64,000 bases of DNA from Umbilicaria muhlenbergii (Eukaryota > Ascomycota > Lecanoromycetes > Umbilicariales > Umbilicariaceae), in NCBI GenBank assembly GCA_000611775.1, contig KK106982.1, positions 1,596,643 to 1,660,642 of the forward strand, written 5' to 3'. Below are positions 25,917-60,685 of this stretch, in pieces. Under the pieces are notes generated by a model. It did no database searches. It had not been told where the DNA came from and saw only the letters and a list, made by a program, of their open reading frames with translations. Position 1 is the first letter of the stretch. Each line of letters opens with the position of its first letter. The translations under genes and the position numbers were made by a program.

Positions 25917-26349
25917 TATTACACCTCTCGCTAAAAGGTACCTGTTGAGTATGCATAGCAGGCGTACATGTGGTACTGCTCATGAAGCTCAGAGCATGAG
26001 CACCCTGAGCACTCAACTGCTCATGATGCTCAGGGCATGAGCACCTTGAGCACTTAACTGCTCATGATGCTCAGGGCATGAGCACCCTGAACAGTAAGGT
26101 TACACATGCAGAGCAGTACAGTCACACATGAGTCTTCTAAAGTACTATATAATCACAGGTAGATTCATAGTTAGGAGCTCATGCTCAACTCATGTATCAA
26201 ATGTAATCTCATAAGTCTTCTGCCTTCTAGCCTATCTGAGTCTACATGTGACCAGTAGTTCATTGAACCAAGCGCCGTGATTAGATGAACATTGATATAA
26301 TTCATTGAATGATTGTATTATCCTCATCACTACAACATCACCTGTTACA
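25917..26349 (+). repeat. 5' LTR of G2
   Basis: 433 bp, ending CTGTTACA. Contains three tandem units of the type CTCATGATGCTCAGGGCATGA. The second half resembles family F LTRs, so the two families are related. Confidence 0.92.
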
Positions 26350-29300: not shown

Positions 29301-32080
29301 AGGTAAAGCCTGAGAAGAGCCTTTTTCATTTCAAGGAAGTACACTTCCTAGGCTTCATCATAACGCCAGAAGGGTTATGAATGAACTCAGAAAAGATACA
29401 ATCTGTGATTGAATGATCAGTACTGAAGAACATCAAGGAAGTACAGTCCTTCCTTGAGTTCATGAACTTCTATAAGAAGTTTATTGAAAAGTATTCAAGA
29501 ATCACATCACCTCTAATGAAGTTGATCAAGAAGAATCAGAAATTCAAGTGATCACCTGAAGCACAGAAAGCCTTCAATGAGTTGAAGAAGAGATTCACTT
29601 CTCAATCAATTCTCATGAGTTTCAACCCTGAGAAACTTATTACGCTCAAGATGAACGCATCAGATGAAGTTATAAGAGCATGCATTAATCAGTCAGATGA
29701 TAAGAGATGTCTACAGCCAGTAGCTTTCTATTTGAGAAAGTTTTTGAGTGCTGAAATGAGCTATGAGATACATGACAAGGAGCTGTTAACTATTGTCAAC
29801 ACATTCAAGCAATGACATGTGTATCTGAAAGGACCTAAACATGAGGTTCAAGTATACTCAGATCATAAAAATCTGTTGTATTTCACAATAATGAAAGTCT
29901 TAAATTGAAGACAAGTGCGTTGGTCAGAAGAGTTGTCACAATACAACTTTAAGATTCATTATCAGAAAGGATCAGAGAACATTAAAGTGAATGCTCTCAG
30001 TTAATGAGCTGATTATTTGCAAGACAAATCAGTCATCAGTCATGCTATCCTTCAGGAGGATGAGCAAGGAGACATGTCTTTCAATAAACAGTTCAACCTC
30101 ATCATATGAGTGAAAGATAACATTTTTGAAAATGAGATTTGAAAAGTGTTGAAGAATGATAAGCTAGTACAGCAGATTCTTCAGAATATTAAAGATCATG
30201 AAAGCTTCAAAAGGGAGAAAAGCTTATTACTTTTTTAAGGCTTGATCTATGTTCCTATTAGTCTTCAACAGAAGCTAATAGAGGAAAGTCATTTCAACAA
30301 GACACATGATCACCAAGGAATTGACAAAATGATAGAACAACTCACAAGGACATATTACTTCTCACACATGAGAAAGAAGATTGAAGAAATCATTTAAAAG
30401 TGTGACATCTGCTGAAGAAGCAAAGCAGATCAACATAAGTCATACAGTTTACTCAAGTCATCAAAGACATCATCAAGACCATGAGCAAGCATCACACTAA
30501 ACTTTGTGATAAAGTTATCAAAGTTGAAAGAACCTCTGATGAGAGCAGTCTATGATTCAATATTAATTATCACTGATAAACTTATGAAGTACAGATACTT
30601 CATACCTTATAATGAAGCATCATCAGCAGAGGAACTTGCATATATGTTCTTGAGAATTATAGCAGTCAATCATGAACTGCTGAAAGAGATAATCTCTGAC
30701 AGAGACAAACTCTTCACCTTCAAGTTCTGAAAGTCATTAGTGAACCAGTTGAGGATTCATCATAAGTTATCAACATCATATCATCCTCAGACGGACGGCC
30801 AGACTGAATGACTTAATCAGACTATGAAACAGTACCTACAGTGCTACGTTAACTATCAGCAAACTAATTGAGTAGAACTCTTACTGATAGCTCAGCTAAC
30901 ATACAACTCAGCAGCAACAGAAACAACTGAAGTATCATCATTTTACATCAATTATGATTTCAACCCGGCTATGAATGAGGCCAGGGGGCTAGTAATGATA
31001 GCACAGAAAGCAAGAATACAAGTGAATCACCTCAAGGACCTGCATGAAATGTTGCAGAGGAACATTAAGTTCACCTTAAAAAGATCAACAGTATATCACA
31101 ACAAAAAGAGAGTTAGAGGACCTACTCTCAAAGAGGAGGATAAAGTATACCTTCTACATCACAATATCAAGACAAAGCGACCTAACAACAAATTAAACTA
31201 CACAAAGTTGAGACCTTTTCAAATTGCAAGAACTAAGAGAAGCATCAACTATGAGCTTGAGCTTTCACCTGCTATGCAAATACACTCAGTATTTCATGTA
31301 TCACTACTTGAACCAGCAGACCTGGAAACGCCATTACAAGAAAAACCACCAGAGATCAACCTGAAAAGTCAAGATGCTGAATTCAAAGTAGAAGAGATCC
31401 TAGATCAGTAAGACATAAATGATGAGTCACACTATTTAATCAAATGGAAGGGATATGATAGCGGAGGAAACACATGAGAACCAGAAGAGAATCTTACTCA
31501 TTGTGCAGTGAAACTGCGTCAGTTTCAGCAAAGAAATCCGCAGCAAGTCAGTTCACGCCAGCAAGATTAAAAGCCTCAAGCATGAGGAAGTCAAGAGGAG
31601 ACCTGTTAAAAGAATCAGCAGCTGAAGCAGCTGCATGTTCATTCACCTTCAACTCTTCAATGTTTCAAAGTTCAGTACAGATCAAGTTTGACTGCTTCTT
31701 TCACAGGAAAGTGATCTGTTTGTGAAGTCTCTCTTTCTTCACTCTTATTTCTCACTTTTGTGCCACGACGGCATCCTTTTCCTTTTTCAGGTGATGAATC
31801 TTCATGCTCACCTTGTTGATCTCCTCTGGAGATATGAACAAGTCACAGGAGATGCTCAGCTGAATGCAAGCATTACACTTATTGCAATCATTCAACACCT
31901 TGCACTCCTTGCCATCAGTTAAGCAGTGACTACATGTTCACATGACAATCCTCCTGTTTTCAGTGATCAAATCAGTCAAATGAGAATGATGAGAAGTAGA
32001 TGACTTCTTCTTTCTGATACCAGATGAAGGCATGAAGAAGGTTGAGTTTTCAAGGATGAAAACATTGAGAGGGGAGCTAA

Positions 32081-32517: not shown

Positions 32518-33383
32518 TGTGAGCATTCAATGTACAGAACTCACTAGGTGCTAGTTCAGAATAGAAAAGATTATGTGTTATGACTTAATCAGAACAGTAC
32601 TTAGAAGTATGCACTTACAGTGAACAGCTGATACTGATTGAAGTGATTGAGGTGAGCAAGAGCTTAAACACCTTGATCATCTTGATCAGAGTGATTGAGC
32701 TGTTCAGAGTGATCAAGGATTCAATCATTATGATCACCTTGATCACATGAGTCTCCTATAGTTTATATAATCACAGGTAGATTCATAGTTAGGAGCTCAT
32801 GCTCAACTCATGTATTAAATGCAATCTCTTAAGTTTATGATTATTAGTTCCCTCACTTGGTCTTAACTCTAAGATCATTGTTGATCATATAGTTCATTGA
32901 ATCTTGTCTAGTTCATTGAATCATACCTATAGTTTACTGAATGATAATATTACTTCAGTCATTATGACACCACCTGTTACATTATGCTTAACAACAGCAC
33001 AATTTTATAAAGGTAACTTTCACTAGTGAATCAACCTCATGAGAAAGCTCAGCCAATAGACATCACTTCTGACACTTTGCAGAAGTGATTAAAGAAGTTA
33101 ACATCATTAATAACACCTCATGAAGATGTGATTCAGTAATGAACACCTCATAAAGACAGCTTCATCAAGATGACTGCTTCATAAGATCTTCCTCACACAG
33201 GTTAACTTCAGAAGAGATATATTATGAGGTTAAAACATGTCTCACTTTCTTTCTTAGCAATAATTCTCTATCTACTAACAATATCATATTATTGCAAATC
33301 ATCAACTATAAGTTTAAGTCACTATTGTCACATAACTTCATAATTCCTTAGTTAAGATATTACCTCATAGTAGTACACTTACA
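32518..33383 (+). repeat. Solo LTR of family R, interrupted by a solo LTR of family F
   Basis: Reads TGTGAGCATT to TACACTTACA. After removing the 406-bp F LTR and its duplicated 5 bases, it is 455 bp, exactly the length of the R LTR at 56710-57164. Its target duplication GATAC is found at 33384-33388 and, on the far side of the later G2 insertion, at 25911-25915. Confidence 0.88.
32576..32981 (+). repeat. Solo LTR of family F
   Basis: 406 bp, TGTTATGACT to CTGTTACA, flanked by the duplication TTATG (32571-32575 and 32982-32986). Matches the LTR at 61173-61512. It is nested in the R solo LTR. Confidence 0.9.
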
Positions 33384-34220
33384 GATACCTTGAATAAATA
33401 CTTTTTTCTCACTGAAGTTGATGTTCATCCTCACTTGCCTTTGTCATTTAAGGCTTAATAACAGATTATATGCAATAATTGAGAGAATGTAAGTCTGAAT
33501 CATCACCTTCACTCCTCTCATGTTGATGTTTAATCAAGTATAGTTGTGGAGAGTGCACTTGTTGTCATCAGTTAAGTTGATATTGAGGTGCTCATCTGAA
33601 TGAATCAACTGCTTGAGTAGTTGATTCAACATGCATTCACTGACAATGTTCACAATGAAACTGATATCAATCAATGTTCTTGAGGCTTTTATTGATTTAA
33701 GTTAAATGATACAAAATATAAAAGATGCTTCTTCATCATCTGACAAGATCATGTTAATGACTGTTGAAGATGATAAGTCATTGTCATGACTCACTGCTGC
33801 TTTAAATATAATTAATTTCTTGATTACCCTCCTCACCTGATATCTTAGTGTAGATGATTAAAGGTTAAAGGTGAATTCCTTTCAGAATTGCTGTGATTCA
33901 TTAAGCAATTAACTCAATGAGAGGGTTACTTTCAGACTCATAATTTAATGAATATTAAATCATTGATCACCTTTTCTGACCTGAATAAGGTTCAGGACCT
34001 TGATTTGCCTTAAGTGAATTAATTTCTTTATGTGATTATTTTCAACCTTCACCTGAGGCACTCTCATGACAGAAGACTTAAAAGAATATTTATACTTCTC
34101 TTCACTTATCATGTTTTGTGATTGTGTTGAATTACTCAATGATGATAAATTCTTGTTATTCAAGCGTCTGCTTAAATGTTGATTGAGGATTACTGAGGAT
34201 TAAGCGTGAGCACTGACAGG

Positions 34221-35013
34221 TACGCTGCACCATGGGTTGAGTTTTACCCAGTGGGTTTGGGTTTGGGTTGGGTTTGGGTTGGGTTTTGGGGTGGGTTATA
34301 CATATCAAAACCCAACCCAGAAAAAACCCAACCCATTTAACACAAACCCAGAAAATTCTGGGTTAACTCAGTACATACAAATAGTTATGGTAGTCTTTAT
34401 GGTAGTCAAACAAGTCAGTTCAAAAGGTGCCTTCTCAAGTCATTTTCAAGGCTATTTTTTGAGGCCGTCGTTGAAGCCGTTTTGAAAGCCATTTTGGAAG
34501 CCGTTTTTCAAGGCCGTTTTTCGAGGCCGTTTTTTGAGGCCGTCGTTGAAGCCGTTTTGAACGCCATTTTGGAAGCCGTTTTTCGAGGCCGTTTTTCGAG
34601 GCCGTCGTTGAAGCCGTTTTGGAAGCCATTTTTCGCGGCTATCGTTAAAGCCATTTTGGAAGCCGTTTTTCGAGGCCGTTTTTCGAGGCCGTCGTTGAAG
34701 CCGTTTTGAAAGCCATTTTGGAAGCCGTTTTTCGAGGCCGTTTTTCGAGGCCGTCGTTGAAGCCGTTTTGGAAGCCATTTTTTGAGGCCGTCGTTGAAGC
34801 CGTTTTGGAAGCCGTTTTTTGAGGCCGTCGTTGAAGTCATTTTGAAAGCCATTTTGAAAGCTGCTTTGAAGGCTGTTTGGATGAGTCATATATGTGAACT
34901 TGAACTGGGTAACCCAGTGGAAAACCCAACCCAAACCCAAAAAAACCCAACCCAGTGTGACCCAACCCAAAAAAAACCCAACCCAGCCCAAACCCAACCC
35001 ATGGTGCAGCGTA
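34221..35013. mobile_element. 793-bp non-autonomous hAT-type MITE, almost free of RIP
   Basis: Flanked by a perfect 8-bp duplication CTGACAGG (34213-34220 and 35014-35021), the hallmark of hAT elements. The ends are inverted (TACGCTGCACCATGGGTTG and its complement), continuing into GGGTTTGGG / CCCAAACCC-rich subterminal repeats. The middle is a tandem array. It keeps many CpG and GGCC sites and so stands out from the CpG-poor DNA around it. This suggests insertion after the mutation of its surroundings, or escape from it. It has no transposase, so it would have depended on an autonomous hAT element. Confidence 0.88.
34430..34880. repeat. Minisatellite core of the MITE
   Basis: Tandem, shuffled copies of short units such as GAGGCCGTCGTTGAAGCC, GTTTTGGAAGCC and GTTTTTCGAGGCC. 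Long open frames across it on both strands are by-products of the repeat period and are not genes. Confidence 0.88.
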
Positions 35014-36991
35014 CTGACAGGCTGTTGAGATCATTGATATTCATTGTTGATTTAAGCATTTCATTAATTTATAACTTTTTCTTGAATGATCTGCTGTGTC
35101 ATGCTCTTTTTTTAAATTCTACCTTCATGAGTGACTGCTGTCAGAGCTGAGTTCAGTGCTGATGTCAGCATTAATGACATCAGCAGGAATGCTGCAATTA
35201 AGTTATACTTAAATTCTTAATTCTCTTGATCATAGTATGAGTAATCATCAGAGGATGAGTCACTTTATTGTTCAACTTCACTTCATTAATCTTGCTGATA
35301 TTAAGAGTTATAATCATCTGAGAGAGCTGCTCTGATCATGATTGCTGAAGAAGCTGTGAAGAAAGCATTTTAATTTAAAACTTTAAATTATTAATTTAAG
35401 CATGATGATGAGTAGTGACCTTTCTCCTCACATGTGAAATATTTCATATTTAAGTTAACACTTTTAACTTCTTCTCAGTTTCCTTCACACTCACCTTTAT
35501 AATTCTCTTGTTTTTTAAATGACAAAGCATTACCTTGATTGAATGACTTGATCAGAGTGTTTATGATGATCTCACTCTGTGTGACTAAAGCTCACATCTC
35601 TTGTAAAATGAAAAAAAGTATTTATTGATTTCAGTTCTCTCTGATGATTTTAAATATTTTAATTAAGGCTCCTGAGAGTCCTGTTAATTTAATATACTCT
35701 GCATTGAATGAGTTATTCTGATTAATAACTTAATAAGCTGTTATGATGTTCTTCTTAACTTTCATGAAGGTATAATCTTGATCTTTAACACACTCAAAGG
35801 TTATTCAACTTCATTTATTCAGGTCTCACATTCCTCACATTATATTAAAATTTATGATAAAAAGATAAACAGATAATCTTCTGAAAAGATTCTTCATCTG
35901 TTTAAAATATGCTGCTATGATCTCATCATTTAATTAACTCAATGAGGAGACTTGCTGTTAAAGCATGAAAGTCTTCATCTTCTTGTCATTCTTCAGTTTG
36001 TAATCTTCTTGAAATGTTTACTTCAATACAGTTCAGTCTCCCTTTGTGATTTTAAGTAAGTTGAAGTATCATTTAACTGCATCACTCTTGAGGTGCTGAT
36101 GAAAAAATACTCATGAAATGATCTCTTTATAATTTGATTCATTTGAGACTTTTGAGTCAACATAATCATTATTGTAGAAGAATTTCATATTTTTTAAATA
36201 TTTCTCTGAGTCTTCCTTGTCATCCTGAAGGTCATGAAATGATTTAATTATGAAATGACTCATTCTTGTTGTATGAGTCTTATGAGTTGACTCTGATGAA
36301 GAAGTCTGTGAATTGAAGCTCTTCAGATATAAAGGTAAATTCTCTGAGAATTGATATTAATGAGAGGTCTGCTCAGATTGTTTAATAAGTGATAATTATC
36401 TCTTGATCATGAATTAAAATAAGATTCTCTCTGTTTTAATATCTGAGAGGTGAGGAGAATATTGTAAGTGTATTATCATGAGGTAATATCTTAACTAAGG
36501 AATTATGAAGCTATGTGACAATAATGACTTAAGCTTATAGTTGATGATTCACAATAGTATGATATTGCTAGTAGGTAGAGAATTATTGTTAAGAAAGAAA
36601 ATGAGATATGCTTTAACCTTATAATATATTCCTTCTGAAGTTAATCAGTTTGAGAAAGATCTCATGAAGCAGTCACCTCAGTGAAGCTGTCTTCATGAGG
36701 TGTTCATTGCTGAATCACATCTCTGCTAAAGTGATCACCAGGACAGGAGTCTCAATTCAGGATGAAGAAATGAGATGAAACAGGATGAAATACAAGATCA
36801 AGCAGTAATTCTGTTCTCTGAGATTAAAACAGGAGTCTCATCCTGTTTTATTCTTTAATCTCAGCAGAATCCTGATCACGTGACTTCTTATATATGACTG
36901 TCAGTGGTTTTGAGACACGGGGAAAGGTTAATTCAGACACAGAGAAATTAATACATTGTAACAATTCATTATAATGATCTAGATTATCAAT

Positions 36992-39957
36992 TTATTTTAA
37001 TGACTTTAATCTTAACTGTTTTCTTTGCAGCTGTCTCTTATTACTTAAGACATATCTTAGTCTTGCTCTTGAGCTGATTGATGTTTTCATGAGTATGAAA
37101 CTTAAGTTTAATGATTTATCATGCTGACCTGATAGAATTGATAGCTTATTTAAATCTTCAGTTACATCAGCAACATCCTGTAGCTTTGCAGGTGATCTCA
37201 TATGATTAACATCAGATGATAATGCTTGAGGCTCATCATTATTCAACTCATTCACATCATAATCCTCATTCATTAACTCCTCAGTATCACTGCTTCTTAT
37301 TAAACAGACAACAATATATTACATTAAGTAACATACTTGAATACTTCAATGACTCATTGTTTTCCTCTCTTATATGTTGACATATATCCTCCTTCATCTT
37401 TATGTCTGACATTTGATGCATCACCTTCATCATGTGATAAAGAAATGTGAGTAAGACTCTCAGCATCATTCATATTCACTCATTGTGTTTCACATTCTTG
37501 ATCATTAAGGGTGAGTTCATCTGCAGAAGGAGATTAATCATCTTGAATATATTATTATATACCTTCCTCATGTGTCATCATATTATGAATGTGAGTAGTG
37601 TTGCATTTTTTGATTATCATGATGTCAGATATAATGTCTGAGTTGAAGTGACTCTGATGATAAGTAACAACATCTCATGTCATGAAAAAAAGGTGCTTCA
37701 CATCTACATTAATTACTGATATAGCAAGAATGTTCTTTGTCATTTGTGATAAAGCAGGCTTACTGATCTTCAGCTGTTTTCATAAAAGAAGAATATTATC
37801 ATGCTTTAATTTCATTTCATTAAAGTATCATGAGGCTTCACTCTCTTAATAATTTTTCATCTCTCTTGATCTCTGAAGTGTGAAACTTCTTGAAGTTAAG
37901 AGAACACTCTTCAGAGATTTCTTCATCATGTTAAAAGATGCAGGCTGTCATGATTAATATTAAATAATCTTCTGTTCTTGATAATTTGCTTCATAATAAT
38001 CAAGGAACTCTTGTTGATACTGTGCATAATCCTTAAAATCTCATTCAACACCCTGCAGTAGTGATTAGAATATAAAGTTTAAAATCATTACAATAAATCA
38101 TTAGAAATGTTGACTGCTTACCTTAAACAAATCAAGTTTTAAAGAAGAATCAAGGCAGGCACTTATTGTAAACAACACTCTCTGCTCATCATATGTTCAC
38201 TTATAATATGTTGAAAGTTTATTCTTTGCTGCTGCAATAGCCTCCTGCAGATTAGAAGATCATTTGAGTTTAAACTTTTAAACTTCTTGACACTGTCACT
38301 CTAAATGATCAAAAAGTTCATTATAAGTGATTTAAGTGCAAAAAATGCTTAACTGATCTGTCACTCTCAGTGCATCTGTAAAGCTTTGAAATGATTATAA
38401 TAAACTGATGAGATACCTGACCTGCTCTCATTCAATGTCACTGAGTATCAGGACTCATCATATAAACTTTTCCTCTTTTATTCATTTTTTGCTGAACTTA
38501 TGCATCTCATATACTCATTTAAGCATGAAGAAAGAACTGTTTCATCTTGTCACAACATCTTCAATTAAACTCTTCTGCAAATGAGGGGGTGTATTAATCT
38601 GAGTGACTTTATATCTCTCAAGTCATTGTGATGATGAGTTGACTGCAATGATTAATGCATGAACCTGAACACAAAGTTAATTGATCATTATAATATATCA
38701 TTAGAAAGACTAAAACCTTTTGAAATGTAAAATTAAAGTCTTTATCCTTCTCATGCACCTCTTTTAATTAACTCAGTGTTTTGACATCTCACTTCTTTGT
38801 AGAATTGTCATTGTTTGCTGACACTTTGAGTGAGTGTAGTAGTGCATTGATGAATAGTTGAAAGACATGTGTCATACAGTTGACAGTATTCATGTCTTCA
38901 TTTCAATGAATCTTTCATTTTCATAGCAGTGATGTCAGCTTCATGTGCAGTGTTTCATTGTTCAAGGCATTATCAGCTGTGATAACAAGAAGCTTATTCA
39001 AGAGCTTATAATTATTAAACACATTCATTATCATCTTTGTTAAATTCTTCCCTGTATGCTTGCTGTGAAGAGGAGAAAACTCAAGAAGAACCTCATGATA
39101 ATCTCAGTTATCATTTATAAAGTAATCAGTGATGTCAAGAAATGCAAGGTTATTTGAACTTGTTCAACAGTCAAGTGCTAAAGAAACTTTCATCCTTGAT
39201 TTTAATTTTATTAACACAGTTTATTTAAGTTCCTTTGCTCACTTCTTGACAAGGTGAGAGAACTTGATTTGATGAAAAGCCTCAACATCAAATTGAAGAA
39301 AATCAAGCAAGCATAAAAATGAGGAATGTTCAACTGAGTGAAAAGACATTTTAAGGTTAAGGATTGTTTAAACAAGTTGATCTTTAAAAGCTTCTTGTGT
39401 AAATCTGCTAGATGCAGGCTTAGTGAGTACAGAGTTGATGAACTGAAGTCATATCATTAGAATAAATCATTATAACAGAGATTTAAAGAAGTCAGTATCT
39501 TTTATAATAACTGAGGAAGAATTATCTGCTCTGTTTAATTCATCTCACAATTTTTGATGTTGATATGCTTTGTCATATCATTGCTCCTTGCATCATTAAA
39601 ATTAAGATGTTTCAGAACTTTCTCATAAAGTTTATAAATAACAGCAGGCTTCTCAGTTTTAATTTCAGCAGCCTCATGATATGATGCTCACAGCAGAGCC
39701 TTTCACTTTATATTATTTCAAAGAACAAGCTTGTGTCTTATCATCTTCTTGAGTGTATCCTGACCTCATTTCATTCTCTCTCACCACTCTTCAAGTTCAT
39801 CATGAAACTCAGAGGTTCAGAGAACATAATCACTCTTTTTGTTTCATAAAAGACATGCTGATGATGATTCAGTGATAAATAAGAAGTCAACAGAAGTTAA
39901 CTGTGAAGCTGAAGCTTAATCATCTTCAAAAGTAAAAGTAAATTGTGAGAAAGTCAT
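36992..39957 (-). pseudogene. hAT transposase remnant (multi-exon)
   Basis: The minus strand starts near ATG 39957. An N-terminal region precedes the catalytic-domain pattern SLALDCWTS-like near 39150-39190 and TADNALNN near 38958-38984. The C-terminal hAT dimerisation pattern (DILAI, then VDVKHLFS) lies near 37655-37760, followed by an acidic tail in open frames 37469-37287 and 37273-36992. Intron candidates carry CTAATGATTTATT branch motifs; for example 38053-38121 has a GTAAGC donor and a GCAG acceptor. Many tryptophan and arginine codons now read as stops, as expected from G-to-A and C-to-T change, so it cannot encode an active enzyme. The family assignment rests on the catalytic and dimerisation patterns and the 8-bp target duplication. 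Confidence 0.72.
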
Positions 39958-40271
39958 GCTGTCTTAAGATGAATAATGATGTTAAAGGGTATGAGAATAC
40001 AGAAAGCCCTTTGAATTAAACAGTTTATTTAAGTGAAGCTTGAATTTTAATCACTTAATTAAAAAAGTACATACATGCATTGAACTAAAGACTAAACTAT
40101 TCTGAAAAAGGAATTTTAATATATGATTATGACAATCAATGTCACCTGACAAATCACACAGTCTGATTGATGCGCTTAACATTTGTTGAACAGTCAACAA
40201 CCTTGAAAATATCTGATCACGTCAGATAATGCTTGTTTACTTCATTAAGATTTAAACTTTGATTTATTTGC

Positions 40272-41900
40272 TTACTCATTATCTGCATCATCTGCATCAC
40301 TTGCATTTGCATCACCTGCATTTACATCATTTGCATTTTCATTCTTAAGCTTTTCCTCCTCATATCCTGTAGCTACCTCACTCTTTATGAGGATATTATT
40401 GTCATCAGGGACAAAAACAACTTCAAGATGTTGAATGAAGTCATCAGAGTCTGTAGTAATTGAGGGAAGATCAACATCATCCTCATTATCATCCTCTTTA
40501 AGAATTTTGAATGACTCTTTGATTATGAAATCAGACATTTGATCATCCTCATTAAAGTATGTCTCAAATGACTCTGTATGAACTGTCTTGACCTGTGAAT
40601 TAACAATTATGATAACATTCTTCTTCAGAACCTGTTGTCTCAGAGCAGAGTATAAATAGCTAAACAGTTTTAAATAAGTATCATTATAATAAAATGTTAA
40701 AATGTAAAAGATCTGCACTGATTATTCTTCTGAATCTTTAATATGATCTGAGTTCATAATCTGCTTATGAAACTTTCTCATGATGTCAGCTGAGTCAGGA
40801 TCTTCAGCATTGATTAAGTTTTAAAAATCATTAATTCAGATGATTCATTCATAACACTTCACAGAGATGACAAGTCTGATGATGACAACTCTCTGATATT
40901 CATCATCTTTTGAATCCTGCATAGTCATAAGCATGCGTGATCATTACAAGAGATCATTATAATATTATCATAAAAACAAACAGCTCAGATGCAGATTCAA
41001 GGTCTTTTTTTAATGTTTTTATTGTGTTAAAAGTTTTTACACACTTCTGTTCCTCTTTCTGTTGTGCTTAATATGCTGCATGACGCAGCTGTTGCTCATG
41101 TTGCACTTAAAAGAATTCAGTTATCATTTGTGAGTTGATTCCTGAAATGAAATGTAGAAAGAAAAACACATATCACTTTCATCAGTATTGAAATGATTTA
41201 TCAGAATATTTAATTAATACTTCTCTTTTATAATCTTTTGATCTGCTGAGTTGACAGCTTTTCATGCATCAGTAAACCTTAACTTTTTCTTAACTTGAAA
41301 GACAGCAGCTTGATCATGATCATCAACTTTTAATAACACTGCCTCATCAGGATTCTGCATTCTCTCATGATGAAGTTCACACACCTCAATCATCTTCTGA
41401 GATGTTGTGAAGTATGAGTCAGCAGTCTTTTTCAGGTTGAAATCTGTGAAATTTTTCATAAGTGTTTCAACAGTTCTGTTTACTGCCTTGACAGCTGCTT
41501 TTACTTAAATCTTTTCTGCTATGAACATTCCTTCTTCACCTTCAATGTAAATCAAAGGTTTTGTATACTTATTAAGTGTTTTGAGCGCTAAGAATGCATG
41601 ATTAGTGATTTCATTACAATAGATCATTAGAATACCTACTGATCTTTGTTTGAAAACTGTTAATATCATTATTCACTTCAGTCTTTATTCACTTTGTGCG
41701 CGGCTTATGAGGGGTAGTAAGAACAGAGGGTGTTGAAAAGTTTAAAATTTATGCAGTTTACACATTCTCATCATCAGATTGCACTGTATGAGCGTGTTTT
41801 TTCATTGATGATGTCATCATGAAGGACTCACTCACTTGCATTGATGATGAAGAGCATTCAGCAAGGCCTGTCATGTATAATCAGTCAATAAATCATTATA
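40272..41900 (-). pseudogene. Second gene of the hAT element, unidentified, with an acidic tail
   Basis: Minus-strand open pieces at 41459-41262 and 40718-40272 lie in the same direction as the transposase, upstream of it. The first piece has a charged helical segment (MIEVCELHHERMQNPDEAV). The second ends in a strongly acidic, repetitive Asp/Asn/Ala tail. Between them is an intron-like stretch ending TTTCATTTCAG on the minus strand, near 41141-41220. Near 41820-42110 there are two diverged copies of a roughly 150-bp unit. I do not recognise a domain. Some hAT elements carry a second DNA-binding protein, and this could be one, but nothing in the sequence proves it. Confidence 0.45.
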
Positions 41901-42415
41901 ACATCTTGTTAAAATAAAAAATGTTAAAACTCATTAGTGAAGGCTTCTGCAACAGAAGTAACTTAAGAATCACTCTCTTAAATTGATGATGATGAGAGTT
42001 CTACAAGGCCTGTCATGTATAATTAGTCAACAGATCATTATATCATCTTTTTTAATAAAAGAAATTAAGACTCACTAATAAAACCTTCTTCAACAGGAGT
42101 AACACTCATCCTTAATAAAGCAGACTGAGCTGACTGATCATAAGAGTTAAAATGTGCATCATGAGAGTCATGAAGCTCATCACAAAGGCTAGAACATGAA
42201 ATATCATGAGTAAAAAATGTGCATTCAATGACTGATGAGAAGACTGCTTGCAGGTCAAGAAATAAATGATTTGTAAAAATGTGAATAATTGAGATGAGGA
42301 GTGACAGGAATTTGAGGTGAGAATGATGTTAATATGACTTTATTAATGCACACTTTAAATTTAATATAAAAGCACATGACATTATAATAACATCATGACC
42401 TTCACTCACTTTATG

Positions 42416-42680
42416 ATTTCAACATCATTCATAATCACCTTCACTCACTTTATTATGATCTCAACATCATTCATTATCACAATAAATCATCAGTTCATAG
42501 CATGTAGATTCTGTATTCTCAACATAATGATCATTTTTAACATTTCAGTGATCTCAACATCATTCATAATCACCTTCACTCACTTTATGATCTCAACATC
42601 ATTCATTATCACAATAAATCATCAGTTCATAACATGTAGGTTTTGTATTCTCAACATAACAATCATTTTTAACATTTCAG
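42416..42680 (+). repeat. Two tandem units of about 132 bp upstream of the H3-like gene
   Basis: 42416-42547 and 42548-42680 are near copies, each running from TCTCAACATCATTC-type sequence to TTTTTAACATTTCAG. They lie between a TATAAAAG motif (42365-42372) and the H3-like ATG. They could be promoter repeats or duplicated 5' leader introns, since both end in a TTTCAG acceptor-like site. Copied again at 44220-44484. Confidence 0.6.
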
Positions 42681-42681
42681 A

Positions 42682-43424
42682 ATGACATGAATGAAACAAA
42701 TAATGATCAAAGCACTCTGAAAAGCTTCAGTAACTGATGAAAAGACTGCTGCAAAAGCAAAAGCAAAAGCCAGTTCAGCTCATGCTGCACATGTTAAGGT
42801 CAAGGCCAAGGTCAATTCTAAAAAGAAGAAAATTAATGCACAAGTCACCTCTGTCATCACTGTCATCTTCATCACCAATTATCAACAGCGCCTGACACAG
42901 TATTATATTAATATTCATGCATGAAGAACAGCTGATGCTGCTGCAAGAGCAGTAAAAACTTCACATTTAATTGAAAAACTTATAATGCTTAAACCTGCTG
43001 CATGACCTGATGATAAGTTATATCAGCATAGTAATGATCAATTCTAATGATTTATCTCAATGATTGTACAGTTTAAGCGCTGCATGAAATTAAATGATAT
43101 CAAAAGTCAACAGATCTCCTCATTTCAAAAGTCTCATTCAGTAGAATTGTTCATGAGATCATGACTGAAATGATGCTTACTGAGGACATGAGCTTTCAGA
43201 TACAGCATATTATGTTGAAGGCACTGCAAGAAGCAGTGAAAGAGTACATGATATTCTTCTTTAAAAGTGAAAGTTCTGACCTTCTATTTCTAATGTTATA
43301 CTAATTTAACTTTTATCTAGACACTCAACTTGTCATCATTCATGACAAGTGTATCACAATACAGTCAAAGGATTTGACACTTGTGAAGTGATATATGAGT
43401 GAATTTGGTGCTTTGGTTCAGTAG
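42682..43424 (+). pseudogene. Histone H3-like gene in the hAT element, copy 1
   Basis: Exons 42682-43030, 43072-43272 and 43321-43424 with phase-1 introns of 41 and 48 nt (GTAATG...TACAG and GTTCTG...TACTAAT...TCTAG) keep one frame over about 217 codons. What is seen: the start reads M, T, stop, M, K, Q, which matches the universal H3 start MARTKQT if C-to-T and G-to-A changes are undone. A basic Lys/Ala tail follows (KAKAKAKAS, NSKKKK). The core has ALHEIK, YQKSTDLL, FSRIVHEI, ALQEAVKEYM and, after intron 2, NTQLVIIHDK and KDLTLVK, which align in order with alphaN, alpha1, alpha2, loop 2 and alpha3 of H3. About seven codons now read as stops, all explicable by those transitions, with no frameshift. 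The tail is about 115 residues against about 50 in H3, and loop 1 is longer by about four. It is divergent from canonical H3 and somewhat CENP-A-like. Nearby TATAAAAG at 42365. Confidence 0.8.
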
Positions 43425-44485
43425 ATACAGTTAGTCATGCGCAGATTATATTAAAACTCAATTCAACAGTTTTAACAATTAAATGTAACAATTTATTATG
43501 AAATATAAACTGATGACTCCTTAAATAATGTCTATCTTAATGTAATATTGTATCAAGCCTCTTTAGGTTAGGCTTAAGTTACTGTCATCATGATGTATTA
43601 ATGATGCAGAGATAACAAAACTATTCCTGTCTCATTCTGTCAACAGAACTGAGATGAAACTGAAAAATCATCACTGAGATGAAATAAGATTGAGATGAGA
43701 CAAAGACTAGAAATTTGATTCTGTCTCATCTCAACAGCCACTGTAATCTCTGCAAGATGTCATCAATGATGTTAACTTCTTTAATCACGATGATGATGAG
43801 AGTTCTACAAGGCCTGTCATGTATAATTAGTCAACAGATCATTATATCATCTTTTTTAATAAAAGAAATTAAGACTCACTAATAAAACCTTCTTCAACAG
43901 GAGTAACACTCATCCTTAATAAAGCAGACTGAGCTGACTGATCATAAGAGTTAAAATGTGCATCATGAGAGTCATGAAGCTCATCACAAAGGCTAGAACA
44001 TGAAATATCATGAGTAAAAAATGTGCATTCAATGACTGATGAGAAGACTGCTTGCAGGTCAAGAAATAAATGATTTGTAAAAATGTGAATAATTGAGATG
44101 AGGAGTGACAGGAATTTGAGGTGAGAATGATGTTAATATGACTTTATTAATGCACACTTTAAATTTAATATAAAAGCACATGACATTATAATAACATCAT
44201 GACCTTCACTCACTTTATGATTTCAACATCATTCATAATCACCTTCACTCACTTTATTATGATCTCAACATCATTCATTATCACAATAAATCATCAGTTC
44301 ATAGCATGTAGATTCTGTATTCTCAACATAATGATCATTTTTAACATTTCAGTGATCTCAACATCATTCATAATCACCTTCACTCACTTTATGATCTCAA
44401 CATCATTCATTATCACAATAAATCATCAGTTCATAACATGTAGGTTTTGTATTCTCAACATAACAATCATTTTTAACATTTCAGA

Positions 44486-45228
44486 ATGACATGAATGAAA
44501 CAAATAATGATCAAAGCACTCTGAAAAGCTTCAGTAACTGATGAAAAGACTGCTGCAAAAGCAAAAGCAAAAGCCAGTTCAGCTCATGCTGCACATGTTA
44601 AGGTCAAGGCCAAGGTCAATTCTAAAAAGAAGAAAATTAATGCACAAGTCACCTCTGTCATCACTGTCATCTTCATCACCAATTATCAACAGCGCCTGAC
44701 ACAGTATTATATTAATATTCATGCATGAAGAACAGCTGATGCTGCTGCAAGAGCAGTAAAAACTTCACATTTAATTGAAAAACTTATAATGCTTAAACCT
44801 GCTGCATGACCTGATGATAAGTTATATCAGCATAGTAATGATCAATTCTAATGATTTATCTCAATGATTGTACAGTTTAAGCGCTGCATGAAATTAAATG
44901 ATATCAAAAGTCAACAGATCTCCTCATTTCAAAAGTCTCATTCAGTAGAATTGTTCATGAGATCATGACTGAAATGATGCTTACTGAGGACATGAGCTTT
45001 CAGATACAGCATATTATGTTGAAGGCACTGCAAGAAGCAGTGAAAGAGTACATGATATTCTTCTTTAAAAGTGAAAGTTCTGACCTTCTATTTCTAATGT
45101 TATACTAATTTAACTTTTATCTAGACACTCAACTTGTCATCATTCATGACAAGTGTATCACAATACAGTCAAAGGATTTGACACTTGTGAAGTGATATAT
45201 GAGTGAATTTGGTGCTTTGGTTCAGTAG
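44486..45228 (+). pseudogene. Histone H3-like gene in the hAT element, copy 2
   Basis: An exact second copy of the 42682-43424 gene, 1,804 bp downstream, with the same exons, introns and stops; this follows from the tandem duplication. It is the copy closest to the present right end of the transposon (45549). Confidence 0.8.
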
Positions 45229-46061
45229 ATACAGTTAGTCATGCGCAGATTATATTAAAACTCAATTCAACAGTTTTAACAATTAAATGTAACAATTTAT
45301 TATGAAATATAAACTGATGACTCCTTAAATAATGTCTATCTTAATGTAATATTGTATCAAGCCTCTTTAGGTTAGGCTTAAGTTACTGTCATCATGATGT
45401 ATTAATGATGCAGAGATAACAAAACTATTCCTGTCTCATTCTGTCAACAGAACTGAGATGAAACTGAAAAATCATCACTGAGATGAAATAAGATTGAGAT
45501 GAGACAAAGACTAGAAATTTGATTCTGTCTCATCTCAACAGCCACTGTAATCTCTGCAAGATGTCATCAATGATGTTAACTTCTTTAATCATTTTCATGA
45601 AGTGCTGAGAGTGATATTCATAAGCTGAGTTCTCTTGCAAGATTAATTTGCATGAAGCAGTCACCTCAGTGAAGCTGCTTTCACAAGATGCTCATTGTTG
45701 AATCTCATCTTCATGAGGTGTCATCAATGATGTTAACTTCTTTAATCACTTTTATGAAGTGCTGAGAATGATGTTCATTGACTGAGCTCTCTTGTGAGGT
45801 TGATTCACATGAAGCAGTCACCTCAGTGAAGCTGCTTTCACAAGATATTCATTGTTGAATCATATCTTCATGAGGTGTCATCAATGATGTTGACTTCTTT
45901 AATCACTTTCATGAAGTGTCAGAAGTGACATTTATGACTGAGCTTCCTCATGAGGTTGATTCATTAACAAAAGTTACCTTTGCAAGGTTGTGTCATTATT
46001 AAACATAATTTTTCTTATTTTGAACTAGCACCTGATGAGTTCTGTACATTGAATGCTCACA

Positions 46062-47377
46062 GTTAAGATATGTTAAGATTCTCTGCACTGACTGTCTTGC
46101 AACCTGCGTCAGATCTCAATGTCATAATTCAGTTAAAATGTGATGTGAAAGTCTTGATTATCAACAGTTTCAAATGAGTGTCTCACTGATTTCCTTGTGT
46201 GAAGTTAAAAGAAAGCAGTAAAGTTCTGATAATCTGTCATATCAAGAAGTGATTATATCATAATTACAAAATTCAACTGCATTAAAAGTGATGATATTTT
46301 ATTCATTTGTGTCTTCATTAAGAGATAAGTTCTTCTTCAGCACCTTCAAGTAATTATTATAAATGATTTAAATATGATCATGCTGCTTTTTCTGCTTTCA
46401 TCAGTCACTCATGATTATTTTCTTTAAGTAGGTGCCTGCTCAGATGATAAAATCTCATTCAGTAAAAAATTACTCTGACATCAACTCTCAGTTTTGATTG
46501 ATTTCATTCAAGTATTTTTAAAGTTTTTATCTCATGACTTTAACACCTTCTGCATAGAGATGAGGCTCTCATGACTTTACAAGACATCAAAAAGAGGAGA
46601 GTGTGATGTTTATTATAATTTAATGTTGTAATCTGTGTAATGAACTTGTGTTGTTTCTTGAGTTTATTATAGTTGAAGAATTTTCTTACAAATATTAATT
46701 AAACTTCTGAAGCTTCTTTTTATTGTTCTTAAACTCAATTTCTTGTTATATATGTTGTAGTTGTAATCACTGACGCTTGATGATCTCTTGATTGTGAGCA
46801 GTGATTATCTTAAGATTTTTAATGATGTCATCAGAGTTGCCTGCAGTGATGTGTTCACCCCTGTCATCAACAATGTCAGAAATAAAAGTATCAACAACTG
46901 ATAATGTAAACTTGTTAATTGAAGGGCCTGCCTCAGCTTGATTATTAATTATTTCACTGACTTGATGAGATTAAAGTGTTGATGTTATCATGTTTTATGC
47001 TTTTGACATGACTATTCACCTGAAGATACTGAGTGATCAGTATGTAAAAAAGTGAGTGTACAACAGATCATCATATAAATGTGTAAAAAAATAATATATG
47101 ACAGTCATCATATAAGAGTTGAACAGGGTGTTGTAGGCAATATAATCATGATAAGTTAATGCAATGATTATATATCTTCTATTCAGTGGCAAAAACTGAT
47201 TGTTGAGAAAGCAGGTTTTCAAACCTCCTTGTAAAAAGTTTTCACTTAATGTCAAGATGCTAGGTGCTGAGTCATCATGTTTATATAATGTCATACTATA
47301 GTGTTGTATTATAATGTTGTATTATAATATCATATTATAGTGTTGTATTATTATATTATTATATAATGGCCCTGACA
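46062..47377 (-). mobile_element. Truncated reverse copy of G1 (5' LTR and gag region)
   Basis: On the minus strand it begins with a G1-type LTR at 47377-47043 (TGTCAGGGCC to TTTTTACA, about 335 bp because of extra tandem units) and then follows the G1 leader and gag region to the equivalent of about 11150 in G1. There it stops against the R LTR end. A fossil fragment without pol. Confidence 0.82.
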
Positions 47378-50370: not shown

Positions 50371-50826
50371 CCCCCCCCCTTCAAAGGCTCATGCCCTCAT
50401 GAGTATGATGATGTTCACAGTTGCAAGCCTTCACTGAGAAGCACTTCACAATGCATCAGTAACAGTTAAAAAAATGACCTCATAGATCAGAAAAAAAAAA
50501 AAATTTAAAATTATAAAAAAAATATGTTGCAGAGCTCATTAAAACTCAGTGAGAAAAAGAGTCTCCCTTCACAAGATGTTTGTGAAGTTATGATTAATTT
50601 ATACACTGACTCAGTGTTCATGATGATTGTTGCTCATTTGTGAGCCTGTTTGACTGTTCATGAGGTCATTCAGATTCACTTTGCCAAGCCTCATGAATGA
50701 CCCGCGCAGATCATAAGGTCAGAGTTTTCACTGTCAACAATCTTTGCAACTTCAACCTTTCACCCTTCATCAGGTAAGTTCATGATCATGATTTTTATGA
50801 TGCTTCTTGTGATGTTTTGCCCTTGT

Positions 50827-50886
50827 GATGCTTGTCTTCATGATGCTTGCCTTCATGATGCTTGCCTTCATGATGCTTGCCTTCAT
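50827..50886 (+). repeat. Tandem array of a 15-bp unit
   Basis: Four units of GATGCTTGCCTTCAT type in the 3' region of R. A matching, more mutated array in reverse lies near 62350-62440 in the other R copy, so it is part of the element. Confidence 0.8.
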
Positions 50887-51304
50887 GGTGCCTTTTCATT
50901 AACAGTGATACAGCTCATCATGCTTCACACTGATCACATCATCAACACTCTCAGGCAAATCATCTGCAATTCTTGTTTATTTCCTCTGTTTATTCAGGCC
51001 TCTGACTCAGCCCCTCATAATTAAACCTTTCATGAGGTAGCTCTTCATGAAGAGGCTTAGCTCTGCAACTGCATCATCTCACAGCAGCTTGTTCAGCTCA
51101 CTGATCATGAACAAGATCATGAGGTGATCTGTAAATGATCTTTGTAATCACTTTTCATGAGAACGCTTCATGACTGACCTTCATGATAATAATTATGAAG
51201 ATTAAAGACATCCTTCCTTAAGCCTGCAAGCTGTGTGTTGCTGCTGCTGCAGATCATGATCTTAATCATTTTAAGAATTATTTCCTCTCCCCTCATGCTG
51301 TCAA

Positions 51305-51490
51305 GTGCATGAAGTGTCATTGACACATCAGCAAGACCTGCATCTTCCTTTATATGACTTTATGATATGTTTTCATGAAGCACTTTTGTTAACTGTTCAC
51401 AGCTTCATCTTCATCACCTCTGACCTCATCATCTCCTTCATGAAAACTGAGTCTGCCTTCACTCTCATCTCTGCCTTCAGTCAACCCTGA
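51305..51490 (+). other. Opposite-strand reading frame in the 3' region of R
   Basis: An open frame on the strand opposite to the R pol region, containing HQQDLHLP and YDF. The same sequence in the same relative place is open in the separate R fragment at 61936-61643, for 97 codons. Next to it both copies keep a CpG-rich patch (AGGCGCGCAAGGCGTG near 51510 and its complement near 61705), unusual in this DNA. Part of a fossil; no function assigned. Confidence 0.35.
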
Positions 51491-54400
51491 CCCTGAGGGT
51501 CACAAGGAGGCGCGCAAGGCGTGTAAGCAGAAGAAACATTAAATGAGTAAGACTTATAAAGCTGCTGTGACTGCTGCTTAAGCTCAACGCCTCTGCAAAG
51601 GTGAAGACTCATGAGCTTCACTGAAGAGAAATATCACTGTGATAAACTGATGATGATTGAGATGTTCAAGTTTTTTCAGAGGTAAATATCAGCTCCTGTG
51701 AGGGTTACCTCTCACAGGACTTTAACTCTGAGTTGAATCTCTTCATGATGTTAAGAACTAATAAGCCTTGACAGGCTGAAGTCAACATGACTCATCTCTT
51801 CATGAGCCTTCAGGCTCTGTGAAGTGATTTCACTTTTAATCCTCTGATAGCTTAATGCTCTGATGAGCAGAAGGGAACTTAGCCCTTTGCTTAATTTCCT
51901 CATGAACATGTATCAGCATTAATTATGACTTATGAAGTCTCAGAGAAGTCCTCATGAAACTTCTTAATTAATTTCTTAAAGTTGCAGATGTTATCTGCAG
52001 ACTTTTAAGTAATCTCTGAGGATTCCTTTCACACAATGTGATATTGTAGAACAGGTTTATCCTCAGAGCTGATCACAATTTGTGAGGCTGTTATAATCTC
52101 AATCTTTCACTTCCTTTCAGCTGAGTTCTTCATGAAGTGAAGTGATTCAAGCTCTGATGTATCCTCACCTGCCTGCAGTTTATGATCATGAAGCAGGTTA
52201 ACATGAAACACATCATGAATATGAAGTTCCTCTGATAATTTCAGCTGATAAGCAACATTCTCAATCTTCTTTACAATCTGAAAAGATTCATAACACTGTC
52301 AATTCAGCTTCTGTGAAGATCACTTCAGAGTTATGTTTTTAACCTTTAATCAGATTAACTGTCTGACTTTATAAATCACATCAAGGTGAGATTGATTGTA
52401 GTGTTTAACTTGATACTCTTGAGACTTCACAAGAGCTCTGTGAACTTCTATTCAGATCTTGTGAAGATGCTTCACAAGCTGCTCAGCTTCAATGATAATT
52501 CTCTTAACTGCAGAGTACTTCATGAGTTCCTTCACAGTGAGCATATCTGATCTAGATATGAAGTCATAGATGACCTCAAATGATGCCTTTTCAGTAGAAG
52601 AGTGTAAGCTCATGTTGTACACAAACTCAGTTAATGTTAAAAGTGAGGCTTAATTGTCCTGTTGATAATTGACATAACTTTGCAGGTACTGTTTCAGCAT
52701 GCTATTTTACTGTTCAGTCTGCTCATCAATTTGTGAATGAAAGGCAGTGCTCAATCAGTGATCAATCTTCAACATGAACATCAAGTTGATTCAGAGTCAT
52801 GAGGTAAAAACAGATCTGTGATCTGAAATTAAAGCTTAAGTGACTTCATGCAGTTTAATAATCTCTCTCACAAAGGCCTCTGTGAGTTGATCAGCAGTTC
52901 AGTCCTTTCTGGCTGAAATATAATGTGCCATCTTTGAGAATTTACACATCATCATCAGTATGGCATTGTACACACCCTCATAAGCATGGCTCTCTGAAAG
53001 GTCAGTTATGAAGTCTAGGGTGAATACCTCTCAGGATCTCTTCAGGATAGATATGAGCTGTAATAATTCAAGTTGCCTTTCATGAATGACTCTGACTCCT
53101 TGACAGATAAGACAAGAATTGCAGTATTTCTGAATTTGCTTCTGCATGTTCAATCAGTAGTACTTTGCATGTATTAAAGTAAAGATTTTCTCTGTCATGA
53201 GGTGACTTGCAAGTGATTCATCATGATGCTTCTTAATAATCCTAAGTTGTAATGACTCTGCATGAGGTATATAAAGCACTGAGTTAAAGTATAAAAGGTC
53301 ATCTCTTCATGATTAAAGTGAGTGAGAACCTGACATTCTTGAATTGACTTCATGAGCAGTGATCTGTTTCAGCATATGCTTCATGAGGGGATCAATCCGC
53401 AAGAATTCAGGTAACATTTCAATGAGAGAGATGTCAACCTCTTCATAAGGTTCTTCATTCAAAACAGCCTCAGAGGCCTGTTTTCATTGATTTCACTGCC
53501 AGGGACTCATTGTGCCTGCAATTAATACCTCATGAAGGTGTACCTCCTGAGTTAATAAATCATCCTTAAGCTCAACTGAAATTAAGATTACTGTTGAGAA
53601 CAGCATCTGTTGCAATATTAAAACATCCTCAGTCTGATTCTCTTGTTCTGCTTCATGTTGATGATCAGGTCTCCGTGAAGGGCTGTTAACAGAATTCAGA
53701 TTTCCCTTTCAATAAATGATAACAAAATCATAAATTGATAAAGTCAATGCTCATTGAACCTGTCTTCATGAGAGCTTATGAGTAGTCATAAAGCTTTGCA
53801 AGCTTGAATGATCTGATAGCACCTCAACTGAATGAGTGAATCCTTTTAAATAATGTCATCAATGATGAAAACTCTCAACTATCATGAGCAGTTCTTCATC
53901 ATGAGTTTCATACTTTCATTTCATGAGTATCATCTTTCATGAGAAATAAGCTGTAACTCTTCACTCATCAGAGTGTTTTTATGAGAGAATACCTGAGATC
54001 ACATACCCTGAGGCATTTATTTCAAGCTGTATTGATAATGTGATGTTGAAATGCTGCAAGAATGAAGCAGTAATGAAAGCCTGCACAAGAATCTTAAAGG
54101 CAGTCTGTGCTTTCAAAGACAGAAAGCCTGCCCTTCATGAGATCAACTTCTTGTTTGATTTTGCATTAAACCCTTTAATGATCTTCATGAGAGGTGCAGT
54201 GATACATGAGAAGCCTTGTATGAACCTCTGATAAAAGTTCATGAAGCTCAGAAATGTTTACACTTCATGCACACTTTCTGACTCTGATCAGTTGACAATG
54301 ATGAATATGTGATTCATCTTCATTTCAACCCCCGTATCTGTGATAACATATCTCAAGAAGGGCACACGCTTCACATTAAACAGGCATTTAAAAAGCTTTG

Positions 54401-56709
54401 TGAATAACCTTGTCATGAGCAGAGTTTTCAAGACAATCTGAACATGCTGTTCATGCTGACTCTCTTTCATTGAGTAAATCAGTATATCATTCAGGAATAC
54501 AATCATGAAGATGTTTAAATGTTCATGAAGGACTTCATGAATATAAGACTGAAAACTTGTAGAAGCATTGATAAGCTCAAAAAGTATAATTAAATATTCA
54601 TACAGCCTGTACCTAGTATGAAAGACTGTCTTTCACTCATCACCCTCATGTATGTGAATGTGATAATAGGTGTTTTTAACATCAATCTTCATAAAGATCT
54701 GAGCATCACAGACATGATTCATGATCTCATCAATCAGTGATAAAGGGTACTGATTCTTTTAAGTAATAACATTTAACCTCTGATAGTTCATGCAGAGCTG
54801 CAAGCCTTCATCATTCTTAAATGCAAAAAGCACTGACACTCTCATGAAAGATCATGACAGCTGAATAAACTCATTCATGAGGTTGATGTTTAAATACTCT
54901 CATAGTACAGTCAACTCCTTCATGAAAAGGTTGTATATAAGGTTAAAAGATGATGTTGTTTTCTTCAGCAGGTTAATTGAGTGATCTTCTTTGTAATGAG
55001 GAGGCAGAGTTTTCACTTGAGTTTCTGAAAAAACCTTCATGAGGCTCTTGTAGGCTTCAGGAATCAGGTTCATGAAGTTTTTCAATTCATTAAAATTTAT
55101 CACCTGCAATCTCTGCATCATGTAGTTCATCTTAAAATCTCTGAGTTTTCTCATGAGGTCTTTTATGATGATCTCTTTCAGTAATGAAGTTGTTAAAAAG
55201 TCTTCTGCATTTAATCTTCACTGTACTGTAAGATTAATGAAGTTAACCTTCAGATTATTCTGTTGTAATCATGATAATTCTAAGATCACTGACATCTTTA
55301 AGTCAGCAGAGGTAAAAGGTTTGCAAGTTTATTTTCAGACTTCAAAAGAGTCCTGAACCTCTATTACTTCATGATAAACAGAATAAGTCTGCAAGGTATC
55401 TTCTTCAACATGATGAAGTGATAACATCTTAAAGACTGAAGATAAGCCCTCTGCAATATTCTTGTGAAGAAGATTGAGGTCATTAACACTGTTAAGAACA
55501 GCTGAAAGTGATCTTTCTGCAAGGCATACTGTGAGTCATAATTATGTTTTCATCTTAAAGGATGCACTCTTCTCTGATCTTAACTTCATGATGATCTTCA
55601 TGATAGCCTCAGAGGCTGCTGTGACATGATTACTGTTGTTAACTGAATCAGTTGACAGAGTCCTGCTCACAGTGTTGTCTGACTTCTTCTTAAGACAGTT
55701 CAGTTCTTTATGTTCACACTTGTCACAGTAGTTGCAGTCTCTGTTAAAGAACACTTCTTATGAGGGTTCTGAATTGTGTGATGTAGTGATGATGAATATT
55801 GTAGGTTTGTGATTCTTCTGCTTCACAGCATTCACAGAAGTGCTTCTGCTGAAGTCATTATTCACAGTTGTTGCTCATGAGTGAGTTTCAGTTCTGATGC
55901 TGAGACGGAGTTTCTTCATGAGTGTAATCAAATCTTCATGAGAGTTTGAAAACACAGGGTGTTCATGAATCTTCTGCTTCATGACATGATTCAGGCCCTT
56001 GAAGAAGATCATTAACTGAATTTAATGATAATTCTTCACTTCATTTTTTATTTAAGTCAGAAGTTCATCTGACTTGTGAAGATACTCATCATCAGATTCA
56101 CTGCTTAACTTGTGATAATTCATTTAATTCATTCATGTGTTATACACCTGATTATCATGATCTTTTAAAAGAGACTTTAAAAAGTTCTTCTGACTTTCTC
56201 AGATATCTTTTAAGCTCTTTTCTTCATGATGTGTGACTCATCACTCTGTAATTTTGTAGTTCAGATATTAATCTGACTCTTCAAGGCAGAGCTTCATGAG
56301 AAGGTGCTCAATTTGATGTACATACTGCTGAAAGTGAGGGTAGTCCTTCATATGATAAAGGTCTTCATCTTTGACTCACTTTTCATAACAGATGTGTTTC
56401 AGAGCTGAAGATAAATCTGATGTAAATCATCTGTGAGTTTTAAGCTCAGCCTGCCTAGTACATTCCTTCTCACTCATGAGTTGAATCTTTGCAAGTTGAA
56501 TTTTGGTATTCATCATGATGAACTTCTCAGAGAATGTAGAAGTGACGTGTCATGACTGAGAATTAAGAATGATAAAATCATCATTAACTGTTGCTTGTGA
56601 AGTTTCTGAAGCAGTTTATGAAATCATTGTGAAGGCTGATTGAGGAGCTCATGAGTTTTTAATCATTCTTACTGAACAGCATCCTTACAATGAATTGAAG
56701 TAATAAAAC

Positions 56710-60100: not shown

Positions 60101-60685
60101 ATATGTTACTCAGAAAGACTGAACCATGAAGAGACTTAACTTAAAACTGAATCATCAAGCAGCAGAACCTTACCACATACTCAGTATGAAAAAACACTCA
60201 TATGTTGTAAACCTGTTAAAGCACATAAAAATGAATAACATCTTTCATGCAGATCATCTAAGGAAGGCCTCAGATGATACTCTTTCAGAACAGATTCAAG
60301 AACCTGATTTACTCACTGAAGTCAACAATCAATTGAAGTATGCAGTTGACAGAGTTCTTGCAAGTTGAGTTCACAACAATATCTTGCAATATCAGGTGAT
60401 TTGAGAAGACTACAACTTTAACTCAGAATGATATGACGCTGAGGGCTTCATTAACTCACCTCAGAAATTGAAAGACTTTCATGACACTTATTCAAATGAG
60501 GCTGAATCACTGCAGAGACTGCAAGTGTGATTGAATATTTACAGAGACAACAAGGAGCTAGATCCTGTGAAAGAAAATAACTTAACAGTTAAAAAAGAGG
60601 CAAAAAAGTGATGAAGAAGAAAGATTTAACTCAGAAAGTTAATGTTCAAGAACTGAGGACAGTTCTTTTGTCTGAAGAAGAATAA

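Follow-up and report, generated by a model that had tools for sequence, protein, structure and literature searches.

Histone genes lying between the ends of hAT DNA transposons have been reported from two groups of fungi. In Pyrenophora tritici-repentis, PMC3538342 (2013) describes hAT elements in which a transposase with a dimerisation domain, a central ORF and an H3-like gene (H3L) lie between the ends, with 10 copies of a 5.6 kb form and 16 of a 2.3 kb form. The 26 H3L genes are very similar to one another, two are frameshifted and ESTs are recorded; their products carry N-terminal tail insertions, match neither H3 nor CenH3 in full and are said to 'belong to neither group'. In Pseudocercospora fijiensis, PMC6710886 (2019) reports 784 H3-like copies in 471 elements, with a hAT domain in 277 and an 8-bp target-site duplication. 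These elements are ~9.5 kb long, contain AT-rich blocks and hold one or two H3 copies each; the copies are intronless and mostly truncated, and two copies within an element differ by a 16-residue insertion. The same source describes H3-like amplification in five other Mycosphaerellaceae, with a hAT domain identified in three of the five, and decay of the Mycosphaerellaceae copies by RIP at CpA. Among the matches listed by our literature search, no further histone-carrying transposon appeared beyond these two reports, and a search for transposon-encoded CENP-A in fungi gave, among its matches listed, one paper only, about nematode chromosomes.

Here we analyse a 64,000-nucleotide stretch of DNA from Umbilicaria muhlenbergii (the window) in which a decayed, spliced H3-like frame lies within a hAT-like element. 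We consider this element to be, with high probability, a decayed copy of the H3L-type hAT DNA transposon already described in Dothideomycetes. The original prediction had held that no described hAT family encodes an H3 histone. That statement was wrong, since H3-like genes in hAT transposons are reported in both PMC3538342 and PMC6710886; the observation itself is real, the claim of novelty fails, and the element adds another example to a known kind.

Compared by description only, the locus resembles the Pyrenophora element in having putative transposase remains, a second candidate ORF and a gene of H3-like type with a tail insertion that belongs fully to neither H3 nor CenH3, and differs from it in length (~7.0 kb without an internal duplication), in being present as one decayed insertion and in its CpG-type decay. 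By the same kind of comparison, it shares with P. fijiensis the 8-bp target-site duplication, AT-rich blocks and the presence of one or two decayed H3-like genes in an element, whereas its CpG-type decay, two apparent introns and differing length set it apart from P. fijiensis and the other Mycosphaerellaceae. Unlike the P. fijiensis pair, the second gene copy here is an exact duplicate formed after insertion; because the P. fijiensis copies differ by the 16-residue insertion, the two cases represent separate events.

The hAT-like element and its insertion site

The element, its target and its internal frames occupy the following positions of the window.

36464-36718, plus strand: left half of the interrupted target repeat, beginning TG
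36719-36726, no strand assigned: left copy of the 8-bp target-site duplication ATCTCTGC
36727-45549, no strand assigned: hAT-like element, 8823 bp as assembled, with ends TAAAGTG... and ...CACTGTA
37558-37845, minus strand: probable hAT C-terminal dimerisation domain, decayed (PF05699, Dimer_Tnp_hAT; E 4.6e-4 with a piece picked beforehand, 20.4 bits against a cut-off of 21.4)
38771-39220, minus strand: candidate hAT transposase core, from its translation
40275-40721, minus strand: 149-aa open stretch, best Pfam match E 0.23, below cut-off
41217-41684, minus strand: candidate central ORF, a single frame whose two open pieces are separated by a stop
41985-43787, no strand assigned: tandem duplication unit 1, with the H3-like gene, the hAT right end and ~34 bp of target repeat (43755-43788)
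43746-43753, no strand assigned: extra copy of the right target duplication, carried within the tandem duplication
43789-45591, no strand assigned: tandem duplication unit 2, 100% identical to unit 1 over 1803 bp
45550-45557, no strand assigned: right copy of ATCTCTGC, an exact match to the left
45558-46063, plus strand: right half of the interrupted target repeat, with 157-bp tandem subunits, ending CA

The placement of the H3-like gene between the ends of an element with a perfect 8-bp target duplication, as originally proposed, is borne out by ATCTCTGC, which is exact on both sides. These ends were recognised by eye before being compared with motif pairs. With a motif chosen after the ends had been seen (TA(A/C)AGTG and CACT(G/T)TA, 300-20,000 bases apart), the window contains 129 pairs, and 8/8 matching flanks occur only at the ends of the element, whose right end is counted twice owing to the tandem duplication; the next-best pair has flanks matching at 5/8. 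The terminal inverted repeats TA(A/C)AGTG agree at 6 of the first 7 bases. Past these 7 bases, a longer comparison of the inverted ends scored no better than random pairs, and the true pair, similar at just its 7 outermost bases, was missing from the output of two blind scans that looked for exact 8-bp repeats beside element ends. An alternative left end at CAGTGG (36902) was rejected, as its flank is not repeated at the right end.

Inspection of the flanks reveals that the element interrupts a dispersed repeat, which recurs near 33.0-33.4, 50.0-50.4, 56.7-57.2 and 62.9-63.3 kb of the window. When the flanks are joined with one target duplication, the rejoined site aligns gap-free over 134 bases with two of four related repeat copies. 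Against the third copy (32950-33400) the alignment has two gaps, both away from the junction, and against the fourth (62850-63320) some of the gaps fall on the junction as well. At the junction, the rejoined site departs from the related repeats in five adjacent bases. When 500 random right halves were substituted, one scored above the real half (223 versus 216; median 133), where the top scorers may include related repeats. The ends, the target duplication and the interrupted repeat together support a cut-and-paste insertion into an older repeat. At 50378-51717 and 61505-62861, two copies of a 1.3-1.4 kb element with 81% identity lie in inverted orientation to each other, and each adjoins one copy of the repeat into which the hAT-like element is inserted.

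The window holds one insertion of the hAT-like element. A search of the window for further copies returned none for 41600-46100 and none for the remainder of the element at E 1e-10 and a length of at least 80 bp. Two scans of viral contigs gave 20 and 5 pattern matches, with no relative among them, and Rfam gave no match at gathering scores.

The frames on the minus strand are consistent with transposase remains. A whole-frame scan places the PF05699 match at E 0.017, which falls among the unrelated weak matches of such scans (0.014-0.05). The translation of 38771-39220 shows what we take to be a resemblance to a hAT transposase core; this candidate has no Pfam match, and its AlphaFold model is uninformative (pLDDT 41). 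The open stretch at 40275-40721 is possibly the start of the putative transposase, and 41217-41684 is a candidate for a central ORF between the transposase and the H3-like gene, of which the piece 41214-41504 has no Pfam match.

The right part of the element is present twice, an exact duplication that was absent from the original prediction. A single C (43788) separates the two units, and their exact identity means that the locus carries two identical H3-like genes. The duplication postdates the insertion, because its unit includes the hAT right end, the target duplication and the ~34 bp of target repeat; and, because no difference is found over 1803 bp, it either came after the decay as well, as a recent event, or was falsely produced by the assembly.

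Elsewhere in the window, 19268-20658 forms a palindrome with a 90% match to its own reverse complement over 1.4 kb, and decayed stretches lie at 12240-15809, 26301-31411, 52005-54758 and 57549-60629, which we take to read like Ty3/gypsy polyproteins. A tandem-repeat block at 34204-35055 has a normal CpG ratio of 0.98 although the sequence around it is CpG-depleted; TGGGTT-type repeats lie close to either edge, and decayed relatives occur at 63305-63631. The GC-rich part of the window, in which CpG is at normal frequency, includes an uninterrupted frame for a class I histone deacetylase on the minus strand at 5548-7101, whose best match in PDB is HDAC1 (E 1.8e-123).

The H3-like gene and its decay

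The gene and its surroundings are laid out as follows.

42414-42680, plus strand: two 132-bp repeats in tandem, immediately 5' of the H3-like start codon
42682-43424, plus strand: H3-like gene, copy 1, three exons, with ATG at 42682 and TAG stop at 43422-43424
42682-43030, plus strand: exon 1, a long N-terminal tail with 4 TGA stops
43078-43266, plus strand: exon 2, covering the initial two-thirds of the histone core; its acceptor is uncertain
43321-43424, plus strand: exon 3, the last part of the histone core, then the stop
44486-45228, plus strand: H3-like gene, copy 2, identical to copy 1 (PF00125 E 1.1e-7)

Coordinates 42682-43424 had been put forward as an H3-like spliced frame, and they indeed span the start codon to the TAG, with matches to both PF00125 and PDB chains. 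A PF00125 (core histone) profile search, which had also been called for, gave a match above the gathering score (E 1.1e-7; 41001-46000, six frames, stops read through) in the expected frame, with a second match in the duplicate gene copy. All of the H3 core motifs quoted at the outset are found, where NTQLVIIHDK requires splicing over intron 2. A PDB search with the spliced core, in which stops were written as X, gave 176 distinct sequences at E <=0.01, and the best 60 of these 176 are H3 and CENP-A chains (E 2.8e-18 to 1.5e-15). Aligned locally to yeast H3, the core has a BLOSUM62 score of 172, compared with a mean of 26, a standard deviation of 4.5 and a maximum of 40 for 300 shuffles; chance resemblance of the core to H3 is ruled out by these shuffles together with the Pfam and PDB searches.

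Comparison with individual histones divides the core between H3 and CENP-A. In the PDB search, Cse4 (2.8e-18, 69 bits) is followed by S. pombe cnp1 (1.5e-16, 64 bits) and canonical H3 (from 2.6e-16, 63 bits). The BLOSUM62 scores, for which some references are partial, are 191 for Cse4, 178 for cnp1 and 138 for human CENP-A, with 170 and 165 for two further H3 sequences labelled frog and plant. Identities, likewise with some references partial, amount to 39/91 for Cse4, 37/86 for cnp1, 40/87 for yeast H3 and 31/83 for human CENP-A, and to 39/82 and 38/82 for the H3 labelled frog and plant. Between HEI and ALQEA, the core has four residues more than H3. By sequence, the core is related to H3/CENP-A, with its scores and identities divided between the two, and we name the gene H3-like. 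A structure model of exon 2 contains two helices (pLDDT 80), and Foldseek with this model returned 9 matches, all at E 3.6 or worse and with no histone among them, so that the assignment to the histone fold is drawn from sequence.

Two apparent introns are present, where exon 1 ends at a GTAATG donor (43031) and intron 2 occupies 43267-43320 with GT...AG borders; the acceptor of intron 1 is uncertain, as the better-looking TACAG (43071) puts a TAA in frame while AAG at 43077 keeps the frame open. The internal stops of the exon frames are TGA only (4+1+1 across the three exons), and the single TAG is the terminal stop. The freedom of exon 1 from TAA and TAG is weak evidence, given that 808 of 13922 background 112-codon windows are equally free. 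The start, which had been read as resembling MARTKQT, is suggestive of H3 only if decay is allowed for; its actual reading is MT*MKQ. The tail is long, with 116 codons in exon 1 compared with 47 residues up to the equivalent point of yeast H3, and exon 1 by itself matched no histone family in Pfam (best Protamine_like, E 0.02, below cut-off). Tandem repeats at 41825-42108 and 42414-42680 (142- and 132-bp units) lie close upstream of the gene; they could be regulatory or could be traces of insertion.

Inactivation of this copy by C-to-T and G-to-A changes, another part of the original prediction, is supported, and here the changes occur at CpG. Observed/expected CpG is 0.09 in the span of the H3-like gene and 0.07 in the left part of the element, versus 0.96 in the gene-rich first 9 kb. 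Of the eleven arginine positions of yeast H3, the H3-like frame keeps R at one; it has K at two, S at two, M at one, and H, C or a stop at five. The codons at these last five are CAT, TGT and TGA, which fits decay of CGN codons at CpG. At the eight arginine positions of Cse4 it has R once, K three times and Q, M, C and a stop once each. Taken together, the histone matches, the TGA-only stops, the arginine codons and the CpG depletion indicate that the frame most likely coded for protein before decay. Both gene copies carry stops and so are unable to encode protein as read, and the element is dead at this locus.

Possible origins of the H3-like gene

In the reading that we prefer, that of a decayed H3L-type hAT element, cut-and-paste movement into the older dispersed repeat would have created the 8-bp target duplication, and between its ends the element would have carried the H3-like gene together with the transposase and perhaps a central ORF. 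Conversion of C to T at CpG would then have inactivated the copy. Later still, the right-hand portion of the element, with the gene and the hAT right end, would have been duplicated in tandem, or falsely so by assembly. The element is presumably kin to the published H3L elements, and its H3-like gene would have moved with the whole family, beyond this copy. The gene was probably functional before decay and may have been expressed and useful to the element; it would now be a passenger or a divergent H3 variant without function.

Alternatively, an unrelated host H3 or CENP-A pseudogene, or a second small element, could have inserted into an ordinary hAT copy. The tandem repeats just upstream of the gene fit such a nested insertion, as do 13 other candidates for an 8-bp duplication with inverted ends spanning the gene, compared with 0-6 in 20 randomised controls. 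However, these 13 have poor ends and the true duplication is missing from their list, so that the excess may merely reflect repeats; the published elements, moreover, hold the same gene between hAT ends (PMC3538342 and PMC6710886), and we judge nested insertion to be improbable. Scarcely more probable is a cargo that began as a CENP-A gene, now decayed, and not as an H3 derivative. Cse4 and cnp1 do head the PDB scores, STDLL and FSRIV are shared with cnp1, and the four additional residues between HEI and ALQEA point the same way. Against this, identity to yeast H3 is as high as to Cse4 or cnp1, identity to human CENP-A is lower, and ITIQSKD of the core presumably resembles ascomycete H3.

A further alternative concerns the age of the association, and holds that one hAT lineage has long had H3L as an integral gene, retained for a benefit to the element, for example through action on its chromatin, as opposed to a host gene captured separately in each fungus. 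The present element and that of Pyrenophora have similar parts, and the long tail, the longer stretch between alpha-1 and alpha-2 and the similar H3 and CENP-A scores recall the published 'belong to neither group' (PMC3538342). Also in favour, the present gene has two apparent introns where the P. fijiensis copies are intronless. Opposing this, PMC6710886 finds the Mycosphaerellaceae hAT consensus sequences and the Pyrenophora element to be without similarity, and its authors favour the capture of a host transcript. We regard an integral, retained gene as rather unlikely, and find a shade more doubtful its extension to an ascomycete-wide hAT lineage of which the H3-like gene would be a long-standing part, a histone variant of its own, with a tail insertion and a longer loop 1, whose action on chromatin would favour the element. 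Were there such a long-standing hAT histone, the window would contribute an example that has apparent introns and comes from a host showing CpG-type decay.

Returning to the decayed H3L-type element, the dead copy alone gives no direct word on function. Through it the histone-bearing transposons gain a copy that may come from another fungal lineage, with CpG decay unlike the CpA decay reported for P. fijiensis and its relatives. Copies of this type are relevant to the question of whether a histone gene is acquired as cargo by accident or retained through benefit to the element.
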